Source of the DNA: Candidatus Sulfotelmatobacter sp.
Lineage (GTDB): Bacteria > Acidobacteriota > Terriglobia > Terriglobales > Acidobacteriaceae
Length of the DNA: 34,613 bases
Direction of reading: 5' to 3'
NCBI GenBank assembly: GCA_030039195.1
Contig: JASHQK010000061.1
Location: 1 to 34,613, forward strand
Shown here: positions 21,118 to 34,613 of the stretch, piece by piece
Layout: each line of letters opens with the position of its first letter
How positions within the stretch are numbered: the first letter of the stretch is position 1
Made by a program: the position numbers and the translations under genes
The notes under the pieces: model-generated
The model's input: only the letters and a program-made list of their open reading frames with translations
Database searches by the model: none
Told to the model about the DNA's origin: nothing

Positions 21118-21341
21118 ACCCCGCATTGCAACGGCTATCAGGTAACCGATTGCGGCCTCGGAATAAGAATAAGTAATCGGGGGCAAAAAAACTTTCACTA
21201 GGCTTTGCGCTTTCGTTTCCCTCAAGCTTCGCGTACATTGCTTCGCTAATCCTGAAGCGGAGCAAAACCTGGCTCTCTGCATTTGTGCGGGTGTGGGGCG
21301 GCATCTCTCCCCTAGTTTCCAAATCCGAGGAGGTTACGTCT

Positions 21342-24300
21342 ATGTCGCCGATATTGAATTGGATCAGGCCAGTCGTGTTCGGGGCGGCATGCATGGCTGC
21401 AATCATGCTGGCTTGCGGAAGCCCGCTTCGGGCGCAGCGAACACTTGGCGGAATCACCGGCACGGTTACCGACAAGACTGGAAGCGTGCTGACGGAAACG
21501 AATGTAACCATCGTCGCCGCGGAAACGAAACTGACGCGGACCCAGAAAACAAACGCCAACGGCATTTACGATTTCGTGGACCTCCCCATCGGCACCTACA
21601 CTCTGACCTTCGTCCACCAGGGATTTCAAAGCCAGAAGATTCCCTCGGTCATGGTTCAGGCTGATCGTACTGTGACCGTAAACGCGACTTTACCCGTCGG
21701 ACAAGTCGGCACGGTGGTGGAAGTAGACGCCGTTCCCCTGGTCAACGCCGTCGACACAACGAACGGATACATCCTCGAAAAAAATCAGATTGATGCGGTC
21801 CCGCTGCCAACGGGCAGTTTCACCGGACTGGCGATTCTCTCTCCCGGCGTGAATGCCGAGTTGCCCGGTGGTACTGGCGTCAACAGCGGATTAGGCAATC
21901 AGCCGATCTGGGCCAACGGCCAGCGCGATACCAGCAACAGTTTCCTCGTCAACGGCGTCGATGCCAGCAATCTGTTCAACGGCAAGAGCACCAGCCAGGT
22001 CGCTTCGGCGCGGATCGTAAATAACACCGGTGTGGCCAACGCCGCCAGTACGAGCGCTGCGCCCATCCAAAGCACCGCATCTGTCTATCTCGCGATCGGA
22101 CAAGCCATCCCCACTCCCGCGCCAGAAACGGTAGAGGAAGTCCGCGTCAATACATCCATGTACGACGCCCAGCAAGGCTCGACCAGCGGCGCACACATTG
22201 ATATGAGCACAGCCGGCGGCACCAACGTGATTCATGGCGGAGCATACATCCATCGCGGCACGGACTGGCTCAACGCGGCGCCGTTTTTCTATAAGCAGGA
22301 TCCTAACCTTCCTTCGAACGACAAAGTTCCTCAGATGCACCGCTACACCCTCGGCGGAACCTTGGGCGGCCCGCTGATAAAAGACAAACTGTTCGGCTAT
22401 GTCGCCTTCCAGCACGTGCACGATTCCGATCAGGAGATCGGCCTCGGCCGCCTGCTGGTGCCCGCGGACTTCAATCCTACTTTCCTGACCAATGCACCGG
22501 GTTGCGGCACTACCAACCGAACCGACCCTGTGTTCGCCCAGTGTCTGGCCGCAATTTCCAATGATGAGTGGGGAACTTCCATTAGCGCCGCGAACGTCAG
22601 CCCCGTTGCGCTCTCCCTGTTTCAGGCGCAATTGCCGAATGGTCAATATCTGGTTCCGTTTTCCGATGGCGTGACTCCCACGCCAGTTTTCCCCGAAAAT
22701 GCCATCAGCCCCGGTACGGCCTATTTCACATCGAACCAGGCGGTGGCGAATCTCGATTGGAACCGCAACAGCAAAAACACAATCTCGGCGAAGTATTACT
22801 ACCAGCACGATCCGACGGTCGCGCCCTACGCGTATTCGAGTGTGCCGGGATTTCCCCAATTTCTCGATGCCGGCAGCCAGGTCGCCTCGCTGACTAACAC
22901 GCAGTCGATCCGCCCGAATCTGAGCATCACCGAAGTGATCGGGATTCTAAGGGAGAAAGCCTACAGCACAATCGGACAGCCCTTCACGCCCCAGCAGCTC
23001 GGAATCAACACGTTCGGATCGCCCTACTTCCCGGGCATCACCATCGCCGATCCATTGGGACTAGGCAACCCGGCTGCGAACCCCGAGGGCATCTCTAACC
23101 AGCAATTCCTCAACTTCGGACAGGGATCCGCCTCTCAGGGCGCTTTCACCGGGGTCTTTCAGAACCGCATCATGCCTTCGGCCAATGCAATCTGGATGAA
23201 GGGCCGCAACACGATCACCTTCGGCGGCAGCTACGCCTACACGCAGCTCAATGCTCGCGATCAGAGAACCAATCAAGGCATCGTTTCCACCGCCGACTTC
23301 TCGCAATTCATACAAGGCATCGTCAACACCAACGACGACTTCACCACAACCAAGTTTCTGCAAGGCAACGCCAATCGCTACTTCCGCGCCGGTCAGGTCG
23401 GAATGTACGTTCAGGATAAATTCCAGTTCCGCTCGAACCTGAGCATGACCGCTGGATTGCGCTTCGACTGGAACGGCGGCCTGACCGAAAAATACGGCCG
23501 CATTTTCAACTTCGACCCGTCGCTCTACAACTATGACGGTGCAACCGATACGATCGCTTCCAACGGCTTCATCATCGCCGGCAACAATAAGCTGTTTCCA
23601 ACCAAAGGCGTGAGCGACACTACGCTGACGGGCCGCCAGTGGGGACTGGCGCCTCGTCTCGGCTTGGCGTGGAGTCCGCGAAAGTTCAACGACAAGCTCG
23701 TCGTCCGTACCGGCACAGGACTCTATTACGATCGTGGAGAACTTTTCACCTATCTTTCTCCCGGATACGCCGAGGGCGTCATCAATGGTGGCCCGTTCGG
23801 AGTGAATCAGACGCCGCCCTATGTAAATGCCTATTCCTGCCAAAATGATCCCAACGCCACGATCACGTATTACCTGGGCTACGTCCCCACCTGTCCTGCT
23901 CCCGAGTACTCGCTGTCGAGTCCCTGGGGTCCGACGCCCGGGCCCGTGCCGACCGGAAACCCTGCGGATATCACGAACTACCTGCCGAATGAAGCGGACA
24001 TCGTGAACGGTGCAGAACTGTTCTCATTTGCCACGTACAACCGCGCGAACAAGCTGCCCTACACGATCAACTACACTCTCGACATTCAATGGCAGCCGCG
24101 CAACGATCTGGCATTCGACATCGGCTACGTGGGCAACGTAGGGCGCCACGAAGTGATTCCAATCCCATTTAATCAACCCGGCATCGCAACCCCGACGAAC
24201 ATCATCCATCCGGATGCCCCATACCCCCAGTCGTATACCTACGGCTACACCGTGCAAAGCGGTTCGAACTGCTCGCCGGATTGCCCGATAACCCTTCCCA

Positions 24301-25304
24301 ATGGCCAGCCGATGCTTGCTGACTACGAAGGCGGCAACGTAGATTTGCGCGTTCCCTACATCGGATATTCAGCCGAATCGGAGACCTACAAAGCTGCCGG
24401 AGTTTCTGCCTACAACGCGCTGCAAGCGCATGTCGAAAAACGCTTAAGCTACGGGCTGCAACTGGGATTTTCCTATACCTACTCTCACGCACTCGACGAG
24501 CAGAGCGCCATGGGATTATTTTTCAACGGAAATAATCCGTTGGATCTGCGATCGGCGTACGGCTCATCGGATTTCGACCGCACCCACGTGTTCAATGTCA
24601 GCTATTTGTATGAGCTGCCCGGCACGGCGCAAAAATCTTCTCTGCTGGGGAAAGCCACAAACGGCTGGGCAATCACGGGAGTAGGAGTTTTCCAGAGCGG
24701 CCAACCCTACAGCATCATCGACTATACCGGCGCCGTCGGCAGCATCTACTACAGCGTCTATGACGGAATTACAAATCCCATCGTGCCGTTAGCGCCGGGG
24801 TGCACCGCCAAGAATGCGGTCACGGGTTCCTCGGGAGCGTATTCCAATCCGACCGACCCGAAGTCCTTCGCGCTGCTCTCATCGTGTTTTACGCTGCCGC
24901 TCCTCAGCCCGGGCGATCTGAATGGAGCGATTCCCGCGGGCGACACCTTCGAAACGAATTTCACTACCGGTCAGCGCAACATTTTCCGCCAGGCCTGGCA
25001 AAGGCGTCTTGATCTGTCTGTCGTTAAGACGCTGCAGATCGATGAGCGCGTCTCCCTGAAATACACGCTCGATGTCTTCAACATCACGAATACAGCGAGC
25101 TTCGACATTCCGATTGACGACGTTTCTCAAAACGAGTTCTACAATCAGTTTCCGGTAATCGGCACGACTCCGCTGCCCACCGGTTGCGCGACCGGCAATG
25201 CAACCAACAACTCCTTTTACAACTGCCCTTCAGGACTCGGCGCTGTGAATAAAACCATTGGTAGCCCCAGGCAAATCCAGATGAGTCTGCGCCTGATCTT
25301 CTAA
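21342..25304 (+). CDS. Oar-like TonB-dependent outer-membrane receptor
   Basis: A 1,320-residue outer-membrane protein. A signal peptide (IRPVVFGAACMAAIMLACGS) ends near PLRAQ. A carboxypeptidase-regulatory-like domain covers about residues 30-110 (GGITGTVTDKTGSVLTETNV, ANGIYDFVDLPIGTYTLTF). A plug domain follows (about 115-290, with LVNGVDASNLFNG), then a long beta barrel with many aromatic-ended strands, finishing in QIQMSLRLIF, the terminal aromatic residue expected for barrel assembly. In Acidobacteriota such Oar-like receptors are thought to take up glycans or other large ligands with TonB energy. GAGGAGG at 21327-21333 is 8 nt upstream of ATG 21342, an excellent site. No SusD-like partner is adjacent. 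The neighbouring exported glycosidase-like genes suggest, but do not prove, a sugar ligand. Confidence 0.93.
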   Translation: MSPILNWIRPVVFGAACMAAIMLACGSPLRAQRTLGGITGTVTDKTGSVLTETNVTIVAAETKLTRTQKTNANGIYDFVDLPIGTYTLTFVHQGFQSQKIPSVMVQADRTVTVNATLPVGQVGTVVEVDAVPLVNAVDTTNGYILEKNQIDAVPLPTGSFTGLAILSPGVNAELPGGTGVNSGLGNQPIWANGQRDTSNSFLVNGVDASNLFNGKSTSQVASARIVNNTGVANAASTSAAPIQSTASVYLAIGQAIPTPAPETVEEVRVNTSMYDAQQGSTSGAHIDMSTAGGTNVIHGGAYIHRGTDWLNAAPFFYKQDPNLPSNDKVPQMHRYTLGGTLGGPLIKDKLFGYVAFQHVHDSDQEIGLGRLLVPADFNPTFLTNAPGCGTTNRTDPVFAQCLAAISNDEWGTSISAANVSPVALSLFQAQLPNGQYLVPFSDGVTPTPVFPENAISPGTAYFTSNQAVANLDWNRNSKNTISAKYYYQHDPTVAPYAYSSVPGFPQFLDAGSQVASLTNTQSIRPNLSITEVIGILREKAYSTIGQPFTPQQLGINTFGSPYFPGITIADPLGLGNPAANPEGISNQQFLNFGQGSASQGAFTGVFQNRIMPSANAIWMKGRNTITFGGSYAYTQLNARDQRTNQGIVSTADFSQFIQGIVNTNDDFTTTKFLQGNANRYFRAGQVGMYVQDKFQFRSNLSMTAGLRFDWNGGLTEKYGRIFNFDPSLYNYDGATDTIASNGFIIAGNNKLFPTKGVSDTTLTGRQWGLAPRLGLAWSPRKFNDKLVVRTGTGLYYDRGELFTYLSPGYAEGVINGGPFGVNQTPPYVNAYSCQNDPNATITYYLGYVPTCPAPEYSLSSPWGPTPGPVPTGNPADITNYLPNEADIVNGAELFSFATYNRANKLPYTINYTLDIQWQPRNDLAFDIGYVGNVGRHEVIPIPFNQPGIATPTNIIHPDAPYPQSYTYGYTVQSGSNCSPDCPITLPNGQPMLADYEGGNVDLRVPYIGYSAESETYKAAGVSAYNALQAHVEKRLSYGLQLGFSYTYSHALDEQSAMGLFFNGNNPLDLRSAYGSSDFDRTHVFNVSYLYELPGTAQKSSLLGKATNGWAITGVGVFQSGQPYSIIDYTGAVGSIYYSVYDGITNPIVPLAPGCTAKNAVTGSSGAYSNPTDPKSFALLSSCFTLPLLSPGDLNGAIPAGDTFETNFTTGQRNIFRQAWQRRLDLSVVKTLQIDERVSLKYTLDVFNITNTASFDIPIDDVSQNEFYNQFPVIGTTPLPTGCATGNATNNSFYNCPSGLGAVNKTIGSPRQIQMSLRLIF

Positions 25305-26640: not shown

Positions 26641-28473
26641 TCAGGTTAAGTTGAGATACGTCGAGTATTGTTCGTCGGTTATTTCAGTAAAGGGCAGCAA
26701 CTTAATCGTGCTTCCAGATGCAAGTAAGTGCCAGGCAGTTTTGCCTACTCGTGTTGCAGCCAGCAGCTCCGTCCGATTCAGCGGTACCTGGTTGTCTGTG
26801 ATGGCGAAGAGGACAAGTGGGCCATAGAGCAGCGCCGCGATCTGTTGGTGATCGCCGTCGATCGGTTCGAGTCGCAGGGCCATGGGTAGATCGAGTTCAA
26901 TGTGATCGCCATTTTCCCATTTCCGTTCGATCGCAGCAAAAGTTCCTGGAGCCGGCTGAGTCCGCAGACGGCGTCCGTTGATCGAGATTGAGGGAGCATG
27001 AGCCCACGCCGGAATTCGCAATCGAACGGCGAATTTCACCGGCTTTGATGTTTTCAGTTCAAAGCTAACGACCTCGTCGAATGGATAATCGCCTTTCTGT
27101 AAGAAGCAGATGTCGGCTCCATCATCTTTCCATCTGACCGACGAGGGTACGTAAAGATTTACCCATAGCCCTTTTTCATCGCGGAAATAGGTGCTAATGC
27201 GGTAATCTGTGGCAACCTGCGGCAGGGTTCCCGAACAGCAAGCCCAGTGCTGCGTGTCCCGGTATGCCTTGCGTCCATTGAAGTTGTAATCGGAGTAGTA
27301 GAAGGTTCGGCCGTCGGGCATCAGCGGTTTGGCGCCAAGAACGGTGTTGTACATAACGCGTTCCATGCTATCTCCGTAGCCGGAATCGCGCGTGACGCGC
27401 AGCAGGTAGCGGGTCAACTTGAAATGCGCGTATGAGCCGCAGGGAGTCTCGAAGCTGGCATGCGTCTGAGAAAGGCTCCGGTAAAGATCGGGACTGCCGG
27501 GAGCACGAAGTTGCTCGTCGGGTCCCCATCCTCCTGTTGCGAAGCTTTGGTTCGACAGCATTTCAAAACCGTTTCTGGCAGCGCGAAAGTGTTTCTCGCT
27601 GCCGAGCGTCAGATATGCCTGCATCGCCGAACTGAGGGAATTGATGTAGCTGTAGGCGTGGCGACCGGCCAAAACATTTTGGCCCGCGGAGAGCGGATCG
27701 TAGTAGTCATCATCGAGATATTGTTGACCAATTTTGCGATATCTCTCGCCAGCTCCGAGTTGATAGGCGAGAAAGAGATTTTCTGAAATGGTGTACGACT
27801 CGTCCCAAGTCCAGCTTTCGTCCTTGTTCGCACGCCACGATGTGTCGTGTTCTACTGCGTGCGAGGGGAAATGCGGCAAAGCGACATCGGTGGTGCGATC
27901 GAGAATCGAGAAAGCATCCGGATCACCAACATGTTTGTGGGAATCGAGCAGGCCGCAGACGAGTTTGTCATAACAATACGTGGGAAAGCGGTTCTTCTCG
28001 TAGTATTCTCCGGAAATCGTCGCCGCGTAGAGCCGATTCAGTCGCAGAACTTTTTCTCGAATCGCGTCGTCTTTGCGAATCGCATACATGCGCGAGAGGG
28101 CAGAGACCCATTGGCCGAAGGTCGCGGAGGGGGCGAAACCATCCCCGCCCTTGCGGAAGTCAAAATCCGGATTGTAGGTGTACCAGCCTCCCAGATCGTC
28201 ACCCGGAGCAAGCTGACCGCTCATCTGGCGGAACGGCTTGAGCAGACTGTCTTCGTTCAGGCCCATAAGAACGGCACGGGTCTCTTCCAGTTGTTTTTCG
28301 TGCAGTTCGCTGAAAAGTGTGACCTGGCCGTAGTCAAATTGGTCGAGTGGCTTCGCAATGCCGGCGTGCCCTTTCCCGAACAGCCAATGAGTCGCAACTA
28401 AGCTGCCCGCAGCGATGGTGAAGACTGAACGTACGAAGTCTCTACGGGAACTCGCGGCCATGGGAAACATCAT
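26641..28473 (-). CDS. Tat-exported GH127-like (DUF1680) glycosidase
   Basis: A 610-residue protein. The Tat signal is SSRRDFVRSVFTIAAGSLVA (Arg10-Arg11). The mature part has the (alpha/alpha)6 plan of GH127/DUF1680 beta-L-arabinofuranosidases: GGWYTYNPDFDF, FPTYCYDKLVCGLLDSHKH, GGWGPDEQ (Glu320), SFETPCGSYAHFKLTRYLL (Glu342, Cys345), HWACCSGTLPQVATDY (Cys412-Cys413), then C-terminal beta domains with RLRIPAWAH and LLYGPLVLFA. In HypBA1 the zinc site and nucleophile are formed by Glu338, Cys340, Cys417 and Cys418, so the residues are retained but Glu and the first Cys are one residue further apart. It probably removes arabinofuranosyl or related sugars outside the cytoplasm. GAGGTG precedes a double ATG (28473 and 28470). 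Divergent from the TPR module. Confidence 0.85.
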   Translation of the reverse strand: MMFPMAASSRRDFVRSVFTIAAGSLVATHWLFGKGHAGIAKPLDQFDYGQVTLFSELHEKQLEETRAVLMGLNEDSLLKPFRQMSGQLAPGDDLGGWYTYNPDFDFRKGGDGFAPSATFGQWVSALSRMYAIRKDDAIREKVLRLNRLYAATISGEYYEKNRFPTYCYDKLVCGLLDSHKHVGDPDAFSILDRTTDVALPHFPSHAVEHDTSWRANKDESWTWDESYTISENLFLAYQLGAGERYRKIGQQYLDDDYYDPLSAGQNVLAGRHAYSYINSLSSAMQAYLTLGSEKHFRAARNGFEMLSNQSFATGGWGPDEQLRAPGSPDLYRSLSQTHASFETPCGSYAHFKLTRYLLRVTRDSGYGDSMERVMYNTVLGAKPLMPDGRTFYYSDYNFNGRKAYRDTQHWACCSGTLPQVATDYRISTYFRDEKGLWVNLYVPSSVRWKDDGADICFLQKGDYPFDEVVSFELKTSKPVKFAVRLRIPAWAHAPSISINGRRLRTQPAPGTFAAIERKWENGDHIELDLPMALRLEPIDGDHQQIAALLYGPLVLFAITDNQVPLNRTELLAATRVGKTAWHLLASGSTIKLLPFTEITDEQYSTYLNLT

Positions 28474-28547: not shown

Positions 28548-28577
28548 GTGACCCGTCCTCGAGATAGGCCATATAAT
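28548..28577 (+). promoter_or_regulatory. Predicted promoter of the 62-residue/TPR pair
   Basis: GTGACC (28548-28553) and a perfect TATAAT (28572-28577) are 18 bp apart. Transcription would begin at about 28584-28586, that is at or beside the ATG of the next gene, so the message is probably leaderless. Confidence 0.5.
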
Positions 28578-28585
28578 CAACCCCA

Positions 28586-28774
28586 ATGAATCGAATGCTT
28601 CGTAGTATTGCGGTAGCAGCGCCTCTGTTGTTGGCCACGTTGTCATTTTCCCAGACTGTAGACAACAAGCAGGCGAGCTTTTCGGCCCACATTCAAAAGG
28701 CGCAGGAATATCTCGCGCAGAAACGTGCCGATCTGGCCATTCCGGAGCTCCAGGCCGCTGAGGTTCACAGTTGA
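28586..28774 (+). CDS. 62-residue exported peptide resembling a truncated TPR protein start
   Basis: A signal peptide (MLRSIAVAAPLLLATLSFSQ) is followed by one helical hairpin-like unit, FSAHIQKAQEYLAQKRADLA then IPELQAAE, and an abrupt VHS-stop. By recall, this is how longer acidobacterial TPR proteins begin (KAQEYL-x-QKR-x-DLAIPELQAA followed by LDPNN and many repeats), so the gene may be a remnant of one. There is no Shine-Dalgarno site; instead a perfect TATAAT lies 8 bp before the ATG, which fits leaderless translation. Its stop codon overlaps the TTG start of the next gene, so even if its product is useless, translating it may drive the TPR protein. Confidence 0.55.
   Translation: MNRMLRSIAVAAPLLLATLSFSQTVDNKQASFSAHIQKAQEYLAQKRADLAIPELQAAEVHS
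28760..28774 (+). promoter_or_regulatory. GAGG-N7-TTGA coupling junction
   Basis: GAGG at 28760-28763, seven bases, then TTG 28771-28773 as start, overlapped by the TGA stop (28772-28774) of the upstream reading frame. This decides the start of the TPR gene: no ATG occurs in frame before its hydrophobic signal segment. The same geometry recurs at 34441-34455. Confidence 0.6.
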
Positions 28775-30423
28775 CAGCCGCATCGCAACAATTCCTGGCG
28801 GCAGCTGTGCTCGCGTTAATTATCTTGCGAGTACCTGCAGTTTTCTCTCAAAGCTCGCCGCCGACGGCCGATCCAACTGTCATGCGGCAGTTGCACCAGG
28901 CGATCAACCTAGCCGATCAAGGGGACCAACAGGGAGCAATGAGACTTACGCTGCAGTTGCTTGAGCGCAATCCGAAATTTGTGCCGGCAATTAAGTTGAA
29001 GGGCGCTTTGCTGGAGGAAGCAGGACAGAGATCCGAGGCAGCGGCAGCGTTTGCAGAAGGCTTGAGGCTCGCGCCCAATGATCCCGATCTGCTGTTGAAG
29101 ACGGGAATTTACAAGTTGGCTGCGGGCAAGCGAGATGAGGCGATCGAATTGTTAGGGCAATGCGCGAAGATTGTTCCGGGTGACGGAGACGCGCAATTTT
29201 ATCTGGCGCAAGCGTACCACTTGAATGGAGAGGACGAACTGGCTTTGTCCGCCATCAAGAAAAGCCTCAAGGCTGAGCCTGACAATCCGTCTGTCTGGCA
29301 AAAGTACGGTGAGCTTCTTTGCAGCACGGGAGACTGCGCAGGGGGTCTCCCCTGGCTTTTGAAAGCTCAACACGCGGATGCGTCACTGCCGCGGCTTGAT
29401 TTCGATCTGGCCGCAACCGCTTACAAGATGATGGACCTGACGGGCGCGGTGCAATTCGCTGCGCGGGCGGTCGAAGCACAACCCAGTGATGTGAATGCAT
29501 GGCAGTTGTTGGCTACGGTCGATGTGAAGCTTGCTCACTGGCAGGAAGCACAGACCGCCTTTGAACATGTCCTTGCAATGAAAAGCGCCGATGTCGATGC
29601 CATGCTGGGGCTCGGGCAATGCGAAGTCGAACTGAAGAATTACGAAAAGGGGGTTGCCACACTTGAAGCCGTCTTACGGCTGGATCCCACCCGGCTGCTG
29701 GCACATTTCTATTTGTCACGCGCGTTTGCCGGCCTTGGCTGGACCGCCGAGGCTCAGCATGAGGCGGCTCTTCATCAGCTAATGATGGAGCAGGCGACAT
29801 TCGTTCGAACGGTTTCCAGCGATGAACGTGAGAGCTCAATCAAAGGTCAGGCTCAGAAGTTGCTAAGTGCGCATCGCGAAGCAGATGCGTTGCAGTTGTA
29901 TCAGCAGCATTTCAAGGGAACGTCTGCCAGTTCCGCCGATGCGTATGTATTCATTGGCAAACTCTATCTATTCATGGGAAGAACCGACGATGGGCTACGC
30001 TGCCTTCGTCATGCGCTGAAGATTCAGCCCACGGTCCGCGGCGCGCATACCTATGAAGGAATTCTGGCGCTCAAGCTGGGCGACCTGAATGGAGCTGAAA
30101 AGGAATTTCAGGCGGAACTGGCGAACGACCCGAATTATCAGGTGGCGATTGCCGAACTGGGCGAAGTCCGTTATCACCAGCAGAGGTGGTCGGAAGCAGC
30201 GGATCTGCTGTCAAAATCGAAAACGATGACTCCGGAATTGCTTTACATGCTCTGCGATGCTGACTTCCATTTAGGCAGAGTGAACGATGCCGACCTGAAT
30301 GCAGAAGCAATGGCAGCCTATGCGCGAAGCAACCCGCAACTGATGGAAGGGCTTTACGACCTTCTGAATCGGAATGGTCAAGCTGACCTCGTCAAGAGAC
30401 TGCAACAGAATCTCGCGGACTGA
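28771..30423 (+). CDS. Exported tetratricopeptide repeat protein
   Basis: A 550-residue protein starting at TTG 28771. A signal peptide (FLAAAVLALIILRVPAVFSQ) is followed by about eleven TPR-like helical pairs from about residue 40 to the end. Clear repeats include AIKLKGALLEEAGQRSEAA, AQFYLAQAYHLNGEDELAL, VWQKYGELLCSTGDCAGGL and AYVFIGKLYLFMGRTDDGL. A non-repeat break lies near residues 330-385. TPR arrays bind other proteins, so it is probably a periplasmic or outer-membrane-associated scaffold. Its signal peptide follows another in the overlapping upstream frame, so two exported products would come from one message. The gene ends 2 bp before the convergent CRTAC1 gene; TPR and CRTAC1 genes are often neighbours in Acidobacteriota by recall, which suggests a shared role. 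Confidence 0.85.
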   Translation: MTAASQQFLAAAVLALIILRVPAVFSQSSPPTADPTVMRQLHQAINLADQGDQQGAMRLTLQLLERNPKFVPAIKLKGALLEEAGQRSEAAAAFAEGLRLAPNDPDLLLKTGIYKLAAGKRDEAIELLGQCAKIVPGDGDAQFYLAQAYHLNGEDELALSAIKKSLKAEPDNPSVWQKYGELLCSTGDCAGGLPWLLKAQHADASLPRLDFDLAATAYKMMDLTGAVQFAARAVEAQPSDVNAWQLLATVDVKLAHWQEAQTAFEHVLAMKSADVDAMLGLGQCEVELKNYEKGVATLEAVLRLDPTRLLAHFYLSRAFAGLGWTAEAQHEAALHQLMMEQATFVRTVSSDERESSIKGQAQKLLSAHREADALQLYQQHFKGTSASSADAYVFIGKLYLFMGRTDDGLRCLRHALKIQPTVRGAHTYEGILALKLGDLNGAEKEFQAELANDPNYQVAIAELGEVRYHQQRWSEAADLLSKSKTMTPELLYMLCDADFHLGRVNDADLNAEAMAAYARSNPQLMEGLYDLLNRNGQADLVKRLQQNLAD

Positions 30424-30425
30424 CA

Positions 30426-32168
30426 TTATTGCGCGGTTTCGGTGACGGTCAGAATCTGATCTGCTTTGACATTCTTTAAGACTTGCTTGATTCCGCTCGG
30501 CCAGGTGAGTTCAATCGAGTCGATCACATTGGCGGATCCCAAGCCGAAGTGCACACGCTTGTCACTGGAAGAGTTGTAACTGAGGGCGGTGGTGGCGTGG
30601 TTGTGCTGCATTCCCAATGAAGTTGTAATCTTCACCTTTGTTCCGAGTCCGTCGCGGTTGGATTTTGTGCCCACCAACTTGAGGATGATCCAGTGATTCT
30701 TGTTTTCAGAGCGATTCATCCAGATTTCCGGGGGGCCATTGAGCACGGTTACAACGGCATCGATTTTTCCATCGTTGTTTAAATCGCCGAACGCAGCGCC
30801 GCGATGAGGCGCCGGAACCTGGAAGGAAGCGCCGCCCCTTGCGCTCACGTCTTCGAACCTGAGATTTCCTTGGTTGCGAAACACACGATTCGGGAGGGCG
30901 AAGGGTCGGTGCGCCAACTCCATGGAATTGTCGAGAATATCAGAGTTTGCAGTGAACAGATCTTTGTTCCCGTCATTGTCGAAATCGAAGACGCCAACCC
31001 CCCAGGCGGTAGAGCGACTGGTTAGCGCCGCTAGTCCGGCGGCGCTGGTGTAATCCTGGAATTGACCTCCGCCAAGATTCTTGTAGAGAGGGAATCCCTC
31101 TCCGAACATTGCGGTCTCAAAAATATCCGGTCGCCCATCGTTGTCGATATCGCGAAAGTCAGCCCCCATACCGGCGATAGCATTGCCGAAGGCGTTGTAG
31201 GAGACGCCTGCTGACAGAGCAACATTCGTGAAAGTCCCGTTTCCATCGTTATGGAGAAGATAGTTCTCGTAGGTGTCATTCGAGACAAAGATGTCTGTGT
31301 ATCCGTCGTTGTCATAATCAGCAAATGCCAGGCCCATACCTTTGCCGACGTACTGAGAGATGTGGGATTGTTCTGAAACATCGGTAAAAGTGCCGTCGCC
31401 ATTGTTGCGATAGAGAATGTTCGGCGTTCCAAGAAAGTCCACGGGCGAGCAATAGGCAGGATGTCCTTGTTGCACGCAGGCGGTCGCGGTGCGGAGACTG
31501 TAGTTGAGATAGTTGACGACAAAAAGGTCCAAGCGCCCGTCGTTGTTGTAATCGAACCAGCCTGCCGTCACCGACCAGGCCTTGCCTAACTTGGGGATCG
31601 TGCCACTCACTCCAGCCTTTGCAGTCACGTCTGTGAATGTGCCATCGCCGTTGTTGTGAAAGAGTTGGTTCCGATTGAAGCCCGTGATGTAAAGATCGAC
31701 GAAACCGTCATTGTCGTAGTCCCCGGCGGCAACTCCCATGGAATAGCCGATGCCCTCAAGGCCCGCTTTCTCAGTTACATCGGTGAAAGTGCCGTCTCCG
31801 TTGTTGCGGAACAGACGATTCCAATACCTGGAGTCAGTCTTTTCCAAGGAAGGGATGGCGGCTCCGTTGGTAAAGAAAATATCGAGCAAGCCATCGTTGT
31901 TGTAGTCGAACAGCGCGACTCCGCCCGTCATCGTTTCTATCGTGTACCGCTTCGGACTCACGCTGTTTCTCAGCACAAACTTGATTCTGGAGGTCGGTGT
32001 GACATTCTCGAACTGGATCGGCGAGATCGATGAAACATGCTTCTTGGAGAGTTGACCTCCGGTTTGAGAGGGACGCGCTGGAATCCACAATAGGAAGGCT
32101 GGCAGTCCTATGAGGAGCACCCGAACTGCGAATCGTCTAAATTTGCATTTTTCCTGACTGCGCGTCAT
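30426..32168 (-). CDS. CRTAC1-family protein: FG-GAP/VCBS repeats with ASPIC/UnbV domain
   Basis: A 580-residue exported protein. The N-terminus has basic residues and a hydrophobic signal (AVRVLLIGLPAFLLWIPA). Seven calcium-binding D-x-[DN]-x-DG-x-x-D motifs mark FG-GAP repeats: DYNNDGLLD, DYDNDGFVD, DYNNDGRLD, DYDNDGYTD, DIDNDGRPD, DFDNDGNKD and DLNNDGKID. Between them recurs NNGDGTFTDVT. Together they should form a beta propeller. The last 90 residues are an ASPIC/UnbV domain (NHWIILKLVGTKSNRDGLG, VHFGLG, ELTWPSG). Family members are secreted or surface proteins thought to bind calcium and other proteins or glycans. No good ribosome binding site precedes ATG 32168. Convergent with the TPR gene with a gap of 2 bp. 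Confidence 0.93.
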   Translation of the reverse strand: MTRSQEKCKFRRFAVRVLLIGLPAFLLWIPARPSQTGGQLSKKHVSSISPIQFENVTPTSRIKFVLRNSVSPKRYTIETMTGGVALFDYNNDGLLDIFFTNGAAIPSLEKTDSRYWNRLFRNNGDGTFTDVTEKAGLEGIGYSMGVAAGDYDNDGFVDLYITGFNRNQLFHNNGDGTFTDVTAKAGVSGTIPKLGKAWSVTAGWFDYNNDGRLDLFVVNYLNYSLRTATACVQQGHPAYCSPVDFLGTPNILYRNNGDGTFTDVSEQSHISQYVGKGMGLAFADYDNDGYTDIFVSNDTYENYLLHNDGNGTFTNVALSAGVSYNAFGNAIAGMGADFRDIDNDGRPDIFETAMFGEGFPLYKNLGGGQFQDYTSAAGLAALTSRSTAWGVGVFDFDNDGNKDLFTANSDILDNSMELAHRPFALPNRVFRNQGNLRFEDVSARGGASFQVPAPHRGAAFGDLNNDGKIDAVVTVLNGPPEIWMNRSENKNHWIILKLVGTKSNRDGLGTKVKITTSLGMQHNHATTALSYNSSSDKRVHFGLGSANVIDSIELTWPSGIKQVLKNVKADQILTVTETAQ

Positions 32169-32355: not shown

Positions 32356-34455
32356 ATGCAGAGCTCCATCAGACACACACGGGCTGTCGATCGAACACGC
32401 GCAATGAAGCCTGCCCGCCGATTGGCCGTGGTGTTGCTATATGTTTTCTGTGGGCCAGCATTTTCATGGATCGGTTCGGCTCAGGTGTCGGACCCGTCTC
32501 TGCCGTTGCTGACGCACGCGGACCAGGTGCGGCGGCTTACGCCCGAGCAAGCGGCATCGGGATATCACGTGCGCGTGCGTGGCGTGGTCACGGATGACGT
32601 CCCGTCGCCCGATTTTTTTGTGCAAGATTCGAGTGCCGGAGTCTATGTAGAGGGATCAAAGTCGGCAGCCTTCACCCATCATTTTGGGGATTTGATAGAA
32701 GTCGAGGGAGTCACTGGTCCAGGTAAGTTCGCCCCGGTAATTCGCGAAACGAAATCACGCGTGCTCGGCAAGGGAGCCTTGCCGGCGTCGCGCATCTATT
32801 CGTTCGGCGAGCTGGCCGATGGCCAACTCGACAGTCAATGGGTGCGGGTTCGCGGCATTGTGCGCGCTGTTTCCATTGATCGAACATCATGGCCAGAAAC
32901 CACCGTTGCGCTGCGCGTCGCTTCCGGGGATGGCCAATTGAACGTTCGCATCCCGATTCAGCGTGAACAGGATTTTTCCTCCTGGATCGACAGCGAAGTG
33001 CTCTTAGAGGGAGTCTGCGGAAGTCTATTCAATGCGCAGCGACAATTGACTGCGATACTGCTGTACGTTCCGCGGTTGAATTTCGTCAGTGTGGAGGCAC
33101 ACGCACGCGAAGTACCGCTTTCTTCGTTGTTGACTTTTAATCCCGCGTCTGGAGTTCAGCACCGCGTACGCGTGCGCGGAATTGTAGGGTATCAGCAGCC
33201 GGGAAAGGCGTTGTTTCTGGAGGCGGACGGCCGGGGACTCCGGGTTCTCACCGAGCAAGATACCAAGCTCAACATCGGTGACGTTGTGGAGGCGCTGGGA
33301 TTTCCAGCGGTTGGCGATTCTGCCCCCGTGTTGAAGGATGCCGTGTTCTATCGGATCGGCACAAATGCGCCGCCGACGCCAATTGCATTTGACGTTTCGG
33401 CACCCTGGGAAAGATACGATGGCGCAGTAATTTCAACGGAAGCAAAGCTGTTGGGGCGCAACATGCAGTCGGACGGTTTGCGATTGCTTTTGCAACAGGG
33501 CCAGTTCGCCTTCGATGCGACAATTTCGGCCACCGATTCTGCGGTGCGGCTTTTGTCGGTCCCCTTGAACAGCCAGGTGCGAATTACCGGCATTTGCCTG
33601 GTGCAGAATGGCGGGCTGTGGTCTGTTCCGCAGTCCTTGCGCCTGTTGTTGCGCTCGCCACAGGATCTGGTGGTATTGCGCACTCCATCGTGGTGGAATT
33701 TGAACCGAACGCTCTGGCTACTCGGCGCTACTGTAAGCGTCCTGCTGATTGTGATCGCATGGATACTTGTGTTGGGACGAAGGCTACGCTGGCAAATGGA
33801 ATTAATTCGTCAAAAGATTCGTGGCGGGGCCGTGCTGCAGGAACGAAACCGCATCGCCCGGGAATTGCACGACAACCTCGAGCAGGAACTCGCGGGCATT
33901 ACGATGCAACTCGACCTGGCCGTGGATTGTTTTCAACAAGCACCGAACGTTGCTCGCCAGGCTCTGGAAGCGGCTCGCGACATGAGTCGCCACAGCATGG
34001 TCGATGCACGCCGGTCCGTATGGGATCTCCGCTGTCATCTGCTGGAGGAAGGTGACCTGGTCTCCGCACTGCGTCAGAGCGTGCAAACTTCCGGTTCGCG
34101 AGAAAATGTCCCGGTCGAAGTGAAAGTTCGTGGAACTCCGGTGCGTCTGCCGGCTGGCAACGAGATGAATTTGCTTCGAATCGGCCAAGAAGCAGTTGCG
34201 AACGCAATCAAACATGGGCATGCGCACTCAGTACAGGTCGTTCTGGCATACGAGGCCAGTAACGTGCGTCTCTGCGTCAGCGATGATGGACGAGGGTTCT
34301 GTACGCACGATCCCACGCCAACCGGGCATTTCGGGCTTCTCGATATGCGAGAGCGCGCTCAAGCCATGGGCTGCGTTTTGCAGATTGACAGCGAACCGGG
34401 GCACGGGACGAAAATCACGGTCGAAGTTTCCGCCAAGGTTGAGGTAGCGCGTTGA
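32356..34455 (+). CDS. NarL-type sensor histidine kinase with four OB-like sensor modules
   Basis: A 699-residue membrane sensor. A signal or first helix (RLAVVLLYVFCGPAFSWIGS) is followed by about 400 periplasmic residues. These contain four related beta modules that open with HVRVRGVVTDD, WVRVRGIVRAV, RVRVRGIVGYQ and YDGAVISTEAK, resembling OB folds. A helix at 453-475 crosses the membrane. The cytoplasmic kinase has the HisKA_3 box ERNRIARELHDN with phosphoacceptor His505, an N box starting near Asn602 (NLLRIGQEAVANAIKHG), DDGRGF near 643 and GLLDMRERA. It would phosphorylate the response regulator encoded directly downstream. Translation may begin at ATG 32356 (AGG 8 nt upstream) or at ATG 32404, which sits closer to the signal segment. 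The ligand is unknown. Confidence 0.9.
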   Translation: MQSSIRHTRAVDRTRAMKPARRLAVVLLYVFCGPAFSWIGSAQVSDPSLPLLTHADQVRRLTPEQAASGYHVRVRGVVTDDVPSPDFFVQDSSAGVYVEGSKSAAFTHHFGDLIEVEGVTGPGKFAPVIRETKSRVLGKGALPASRIYSFGELADGQLDSQWVRVRGIVRAVSIDRTSWPETTVALRVASGDGQLNVRIPIQREQDFSSWIDSEVLLEGVCGSLFNAQRQLTAILLYVPRLNFVSVEAHAREVPLSSLLTFNPASGVQHRVRVRGIVGYQQPGKALFLEADGRGLRVLTEQDTKLNIGDVVEALGFPAVGDSAPVLKDAVFYRIGTNAPPTPIAFDVSAPWERYDGAVISTEAKLLGRNMQSDGLRLLLQQGQFAFDATISATDSAVRLLSVPLNSQVRITGICLVQNGGLWSVPQSLRLLLRSPQDLVVLRTPSWWNLNRTLWLLGATVSVLLIVIAWILVLGRRLRWQMELIRQKIRGGAVLQERNRIARELHDNLEQELAGITMQLDLAVDCFQQAPNVARQALEAARDMSRHSMVDARRSVWDLRCHLLEEGDLVSALRQSVQTSGSRENVPVEVKVRGTPVRLPAGNEMNLLRIGQEAVANAIKHGHAHSVQVVLAYEASNVRLCVSDDGRGFCTHDPTPTGHFGLLDMRERAQAMGCVLQIDSEPGHGTKITVEVSAKVEVAR
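34441..34455 (+). promoter_or_regulatory. GAGG-N7-TTGA coupling junction
   Basis: GAGG at 34441-34444, seven bases, then TTG 34452-34454 as start of the response regulator, overlapped by the TGA stop (34453-34455) of the kinase. Identical geometry to 28760-28774, with different spacer sequence. Confidence 0.65.
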
Positions 34456-34613
34456 TTAGCGGTCAAAAGGCCGCGCGAATTCTGGTTGTTGACGAACACT
34501 TCATGGTGCGCATGGGGTTATCGGCGTCGCTTAATGCGGAAGACGATATGGAAGTTATCGCTGAGGCTGCAAACGGGCAAGACGCGATAGAAGCGTATCG
34601 CCAACACCATCCC
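34452..34613 (+). CDS. Response regulator, NarL/FixJ type (partial, cut by window end)
   Basis: The first 54 codons are present. After ISGQKAA the receiver domain starts ARILVVDEHFMVRMGLSASL and continues AEDDMEVIAEAANGQDAIEA, the usual first beta strand, acidic pocket and second strand of NarL-type receivers. The acidic pair is Asp-Glu rather than Asp-Asp. The phosphoacceptor aspartate and any DNA-binding domain lie beyond the window. It starts at TTG inside the kinase stop codon and is the expected partner of that kinase. The NarL/FixJ output type is inferred from the HisKA_3 kinase. Confidence 0.85.
   Translation, partial: MISGQKAARILVVDEHFMVRMGLSASLNAEDDMEVIAEAANGQDAIEAYRQHHP

Follow-up and report, generated by a model that had tools for sequence, protein, structure and literature searches.

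Two GAGG-N7-TTGA stop/start overlaps on one Acidobacteriota contig: a probable chance pairing that includes an apparent gene-loss scar

Two short strings of the form GAGG-N7-TTGA on a contig of Candidatus Sulfotelmatobacter sp. are very probably ordinary stop/start overlaps, unrelated to each other and alike by chance, site 1 being left behind by gene loss and site 2 joining a histidine kinase gene to that of its response regulator. The window, by which we mean the whole stretch of 34,613 nucleotides that was analysed, is the entire contig C161 of a genome of 6.35 Mb in 724 contigs (90.77% complete, contamination 6.11). A string scan of these 34.6 kb found the pattern at 28760-28774 and 34441-34455, both on the plus strand. 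Site 1 consists of GAGG (28760-28763), a 7-base spacer, TTG (28771-28773) and TGA (28772-28774); site 2 has GAGG at 34441-34444, a 7-base spacer, TTG at 34452-34454 and TGA at 34453-34455. At both sites the TGA stop shares two bases with a same-strand NTG start, giving the NTGA (-4 nt) overlap, and GAGG provides a Shine-Dalgarno (SD)-like motif 7 bases 5′ of the TTG, which is the best candidate start codon in each case. The first-pass annotation had described two such strings with differing spacers, and the sequence matches it exactly, the spacers being TTCACAG at site 1 and TAGCGCG at site 2.

An excess of the geometry over chance, which that annotation proposed to look for in related genomes, is not seen in the window itself. 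Two matches were observed where 1.22 were expected from 100 dinucleotide-preserving shuffles, and 35 of the 100 shuffles contained at least two. Two copies in the window are therefore unremarkable.

A wider count covered 1,817,360 bases (1.82 Mb) from a single genus: the window, 20 further contigs or parts of contigs from its genome, and long pieces of four congeners (G004, G012, G014 and G022). A home-made hexamer caller yielded 1542 genes; its start codons are unreliable, and start-codon tallies were not used for any claim. Among these genes 588 ended in TGA, and 579 could be classed; the other nine were set aside, either as the last called gene on their contig or for lying at most 30 bases from its edge. 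For each end we asked whether the base before TGA creates an NTG in frame with the next gene on the same strand, and CTGA served as the non-start control. The count includes site 1 as well as the site 2 orthologue in G022; it leaves out site 2 of the window because the regulator gene there runs off the contig.

In-frame TTGA junctions were no commoner than the control (13/109 against 21/172, 12% each; Fisher P = 1.0). Only ATGA differed from CTGA, at 57 of 147 (39%; P = 5e-8), GTGA standing at 26 of 151 (P = 0.21). There was likewise no peak at a spacer of 7: as a bare string on both strands of the 1.82 Mb, GAGG-Nk-TTGA occurred 37 times at k = 7, within a range of 27-74 for k = 2-14. GAGG lay at 6-8 nt in two of the 13 in-frame TTGA junctions, one of the two being site 1 itself, against one of the 96 other TTGA gene ends. 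With any SD-like motif the figures were 4/13 and 12/96 (P = 0.098). Such motifs were commoner 5′ of in-frame ATGA (26/57 against 11/90 other ATGA ends) and in-frame GTGA (8/26 against 9/125), as expected of closely packed genes generally, and the CTGA control had a similar tendency (7 of 21 in frame, 23 of 151 others). The annotation had itself named the lack of an excess in related genomes as grounds for abandoning its proposal; since same-genus DNA shows no excess of the geometry, the proposal fails on its own terms, within one genus and 1.82 Mb.

A smaller count (1.02 Mb, 897 genes), all of whose DNA is contained in the larger one, lacked the CTGA control and had mildly favoured TTGA. There, 11 of 65 TTGA ends were in frame, and GAGG stood at 6-8 nt in 2 of those 11 against 1 of the 54 others. 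That lead was dropped when the larger count, with CTGA included, gave no TTGA excess.

The upstream member of site 1 is a 62-codon open reading frame (ORF; 28586-28774, plus strand) with a signal-peptide-like start, possibly beginning at its second ATG (28595). By alignment with relatives it is a truncated stump comprising the first ~58 codons of a tetratricopeptide repeat (TPR) gene of about 400 codons, here called TPR400. At E ≤ 1e-5 the ORF was matched in 6 of 45 genomes of the genus, its own and five others. The five others carry open frames of 403-438 codons, and every match stops at query residue 58. Past that codon the five TPR400 sequences continue to agree with one another, and the window diverges beside the motif: after CAGGC(C/T)GC and one further base, all five share GTGGCCATCGATCC, where the window reads GAGGTTCACAGTTGAC. 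The break is best given as a region (28759-28770, plus strand), the window following the five relatives to about 28759 and having departed by 28770. Judged by eye, the GAGG of site 1 may be left over from the TPR400 codons that came next. Because the upstream ORF is a stump, so that the two members are not both intact, site 1 is not classed as a normal gene pair.

Downstream lies TPR550 (28771-30423, plus strand), which encodes a 550-aa TPR protein, identified by Pfam and by alignments, with an N-terminal hydrophobic signal-like stretch and a TTG start. By eye, this TTG falls at the start position of TPR550 in relatives, and an in-frame stop lies four codons upstream of it. The alternative in-frame starts, GTG at codon 13 and TTG at codon 19, would both cut into the signal-like stretch.

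In the five relatives with TPR400 (G019, G004, G016, G064 and G027), the full-length gene always follows a large receptor-like ORF; those of the other four are 66-84% identical to that of G019. We label this receptor 'TonB-type' on the strength of the 24-36% identity that it shares with an outer-membrane beta-barrel protein of the window (21285-25304). A further gene, CRTAC617 (FG-GAP/UnbV-ASPIC), lies between TPR400 and TPR550 in G019, G004, G016 and G064 and is absent from G027. Pfam assignments of the cluster genes were run on the G004 copies. TPR550 starts 1-4 nt past the CRTAC617 stop in those four genomes (by eye), with ATG in G019, G016 and G064 and GTG in G004, so TPR550 usually starts close to the stop of the gene before it, but the particular junction and partner in the window are new. 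After TPR550 comes a convergent FG-GAP/UnbV-ASPIC gene in G019, G004, G027 and G064, the G016 contig ending inside TPR550. The window has its counterpart in CRTAC580 (30426-32168, minus strand), a 580-aa FG-GAP/UnbV-ASPIC protein gene convergent with TPR550 and assigned by Pfam and neighbourhood comparison. In the window's cluster, TPR400 is cut after codon 58 and CRTAC617 is missing at that place.

Other copies and neighbours vary. Set side by side, the relatives' cluster of receptor, TPR400, FG-GAP/UnbV-ASPIC gene (not in G027) and TPR550 (loci L033, L034, L036, L039 and L087) corresponds to the stump and TPR550 at 28586-30423 of the window. A GH127-type beta-L-arabinofuranosidase gene (26641-28473, minus strand) occupies the position that the receptor holds upstream of TPR400 in relatives. 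In the stretches examined, TPR400 is missing immediately upstream of the TPR550 copies in G014, G012, G016 (contig C20) and the window's own genome (G000, contig C333), and the G034 contig stops inside CRTAC617, before TPR550. A further contig search returned four loci, one of them a 31% match in a deltaproteobacterium; another, L049, equals contig C58 of G027 in length and may duplicate it.

These comparisons suggest how site 1 could have arisen. Most of TPR400 would have been lost, through a deletion or some other join of its 5′ end to TPR550. CRTAC617, the intervening gene in four of the five relatives, would have gone together with TPR400 or before it. The outcome would be a 62-codon stump whose end sits on the start of the surviving TPR550. 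The collinear order suggests a deletion, and that is the event we infer. G027 lacks CRTAC617 yet has a whole TPR400, so the two losses in the window need not have been one event. The TPR550 tree (11 rows) did not assign the window's gene to either the operon copies or those without TPR400, so the join may have been of another kind than a simple deletion. The CRTAC580 tree (9 rows, one of which, G016_C62, is really CRTAC617 on a very long branch) gave the window's gene no firm place, and when site 1 was aligned by MAFFT to the CRTAC617/TPR550 junctions of the relatives, the right-hand break was not located to the exact base.

The stump may have become more than debris. One possibility, which we hold only tentatively, is that the 62-codon ORF has been kept as a leader cistron; TPR550 would then be driven from the former promoter and start of TPR400, and the coupling by overlap would be under selection. 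The frame has stayed open with its signal-peptide-like start, it ends exactly on the downstream start, and its last 48 codons scored as a gene by a home-made coding score. A putative promoter is suggested from sequence by TATAAT (28572-28577, plus strand), a possible -10 box 8 bases 5′ of the stump ATG; by eye, a TATATAATC string also precedes the TPR400 start in G016 and G064, two of the five relatives. Against a maintained cistron, the stump occurs in this genome only among the 45 searched (E ≤ 1e-5), and Pfam run on the 62-codon ORF by itself gave no match. It is doubtful that gene loss made a short secreted-peptide leader out of the 5′ end of TPR400, with TPR550 gaining the old promoter and coupling in one step.

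It is improbable that site 1 is an assembly misjoin of the TPR400 5′ end to TPR550, although the genome is fragmented and its contamination value is that given above, its TPR and UnbV-ASPIC genes are multicopy, and a CRTAC617 relative of 83% identity lies on another contig (C59). Among the examined contigs of the genome, none supplies the missing part of a close TPR400. The strongest other match, at 48% identity on contig C235, adjoins a receptor that shares just 42% identity with the G019 one, which gives it the look of a paralogous cluster. As for the CRTAC617 relative on C59, the gene before it there is an unrelated one instead of TPR400. At 90.77% completeness, an intact TPR400 may lie unseen elsewhere in the genome.

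On C59 (locus L086, 2468-5733) the 83% CRTAC617 relative comes after a 481-aa ORF, putatively glycosidase-like; the stop and start share one base (TAATG), and the neighbourhood is a different one. C235 is a short contig with a second receptor/TPR400-like pair (locus L042, 2-3179; 42% and 46-48% identity), probably a paralogous cluster.

Site 2 joins genes of another kind. Upstream is an intact gene for a 699-aa sensor histidine kinase (32356-34455, plus strand; HisKA_3 and HATPase_c by Pfam), and downstream is the 5′ part of a response regulator receiver-domain gene (34452-34613, plus strand), which starts at TTG and is cut by the contig end. The receiver assignment draws on orthologues and on a Pfam score of 27.6 bits for the 54-residue piece, below the Pfam cut-off of 30.2. 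The TTG is the sole in-frame ATG, GTG or TTG within 10 codons on either side. Kinase matches at E ≤ 1e-60 occurred in 14 of 45 genus genomes, the window's own included, and the junction was read in 12 of them, leaving out G034 (where the contig runs out before the C-terminus of the match is reached) and G028 (a partial match of 34% identity).

The annotation's geometry is not conserved at this junction. In 10 of the 12 genomes the codon that follows the position of the window's TTG is an in-frame ATG; in the same ten the kinase reads on to a stop 38 or 41 nt downstream of the TTG position, making a longer overlap. The 4-nt TTGA overlap is confined to the window and G022 among the 12, and the exact GAGG-N7 spacing to the window itself. 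G022, whose kinase frame was missed by the motif script and whose junction was read by hand, is the nearest orthologue (kinase 74% identical). It retains the TTGA overlap, and the motif at the same distance from the TTG reads AGG instead of GAGG. The codon that is ATG in the ten orthologues is ATT in the window and ATC in G022. G016 has a TTG at the window's TTG position (TTGATG), yet the TGA there is not the kinase stop, and G068 has an additional nearby TTG at -30. Start codon and overlap length both vary; the kept feature is the kinase/regulator pairing. Since the ATG codon reads ATT and the kinase C-terminus is shorter than in most orthologues, the codon just before it, TTG, would serve as the regulator's start, and what was a long overlap would now measure 4 nt. 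At this site, as at site 1, the direction of change is one that we infer.

In 3 of the 12 genomes, no more than about 10 kb separates the kinase/regulator pair from the TPR/UnbV-ASPIC cluster: the window (32356-34613), G016 (locus L039, 8671-8998) and G004 (G004:C121:103681-105630), with differing local order. The pair might regulate the cluster.

Translation coupling itself, which the annotation had proposed for both junctions, is plausible at each of them as a consequence of stop/start overlap; what is not supported is a special, recurrent TTG device, there being no TTGA excess over CTGA and no peak at a spacer of 7. Ribosomes terminating on the stump or on the kinase could restart at the overlapping TTG, aided by GAGG. 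If coupled, both sites would most likely be ordinary cases of termination-reinitiation with SD-like assistance. A deliberate arrangement in which weak TTG starts tie downstream output to upstream translation is highly improbable: the geometry fits both sites, G022 has AGG-N7-TTGA at site 2 and GAGG at 6-8 nt precedes 2 of 13 in-frame TTGA junctions against 1 of 96 other TTGA ends, but the counts just cited, the ATG within a longer overlap in most site 2 orthologues and an upstream gene at site 1 that is a stump in a single genome among the 45 searched all tell against it. Nor is it a recurrent arrangement at site 1, where none of the five congeners with TPR400 has the junction.

The pair of sites carries two cautions. 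A short pattern found twice in 34.6 kb is what chance leads one to expect, and site 1 looks to be a scar, not a designed gene pair. Of mild interest is only this scar-like character of site 1, which may show on a small scale how gene loss gives rise to a stop/start overlap in nature; a leader gained together with coupling in one step, if true, would illustrate coupling re-established naturally by a deletion.

Translation coupling through stop/start overlap is a well-known mechanism. According to a review, no other spacing motif of neighbouring ORFs comes near NTGA (-4 nt) in frequency, which it ascribes to the ease with which NTGA evolves (PMC12548453), and a survey of 720 genomes describes stop/start overlaps of which about half or more have SD motifs in 20 of 24 groups (PMC6728339). 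Both sites resemble the NTGA termination-reinitiation overlaps outlined in these two sources, in that TGA and NTG share two bases and an SD-like motif lies in the end of the upstream gene. They differ from the usual example, which uses ATG: both have TTG, coupling is only plausible, and the upstream ORF of site 1 is truncated. Site 2 is like a histidine kinase/response regulator operon pair, a HisKA_3 kinase being followed immediately by a receiver-domain protein; unlike the typical pair, only its 4-nt overlap is notable and its regulator is cut by the contig end. TTGA is listed among the readily formed 4-nt overlaps in a simulation (PMC3887535), and the two sites are like the overlaps it derives from mutation or deletion at gene ends, where a start codon followed by A yields TGA and hence an easy 4-nt overlap. 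In place of a point change, site 1 seems to have lost most of one gene and perhaps a second.
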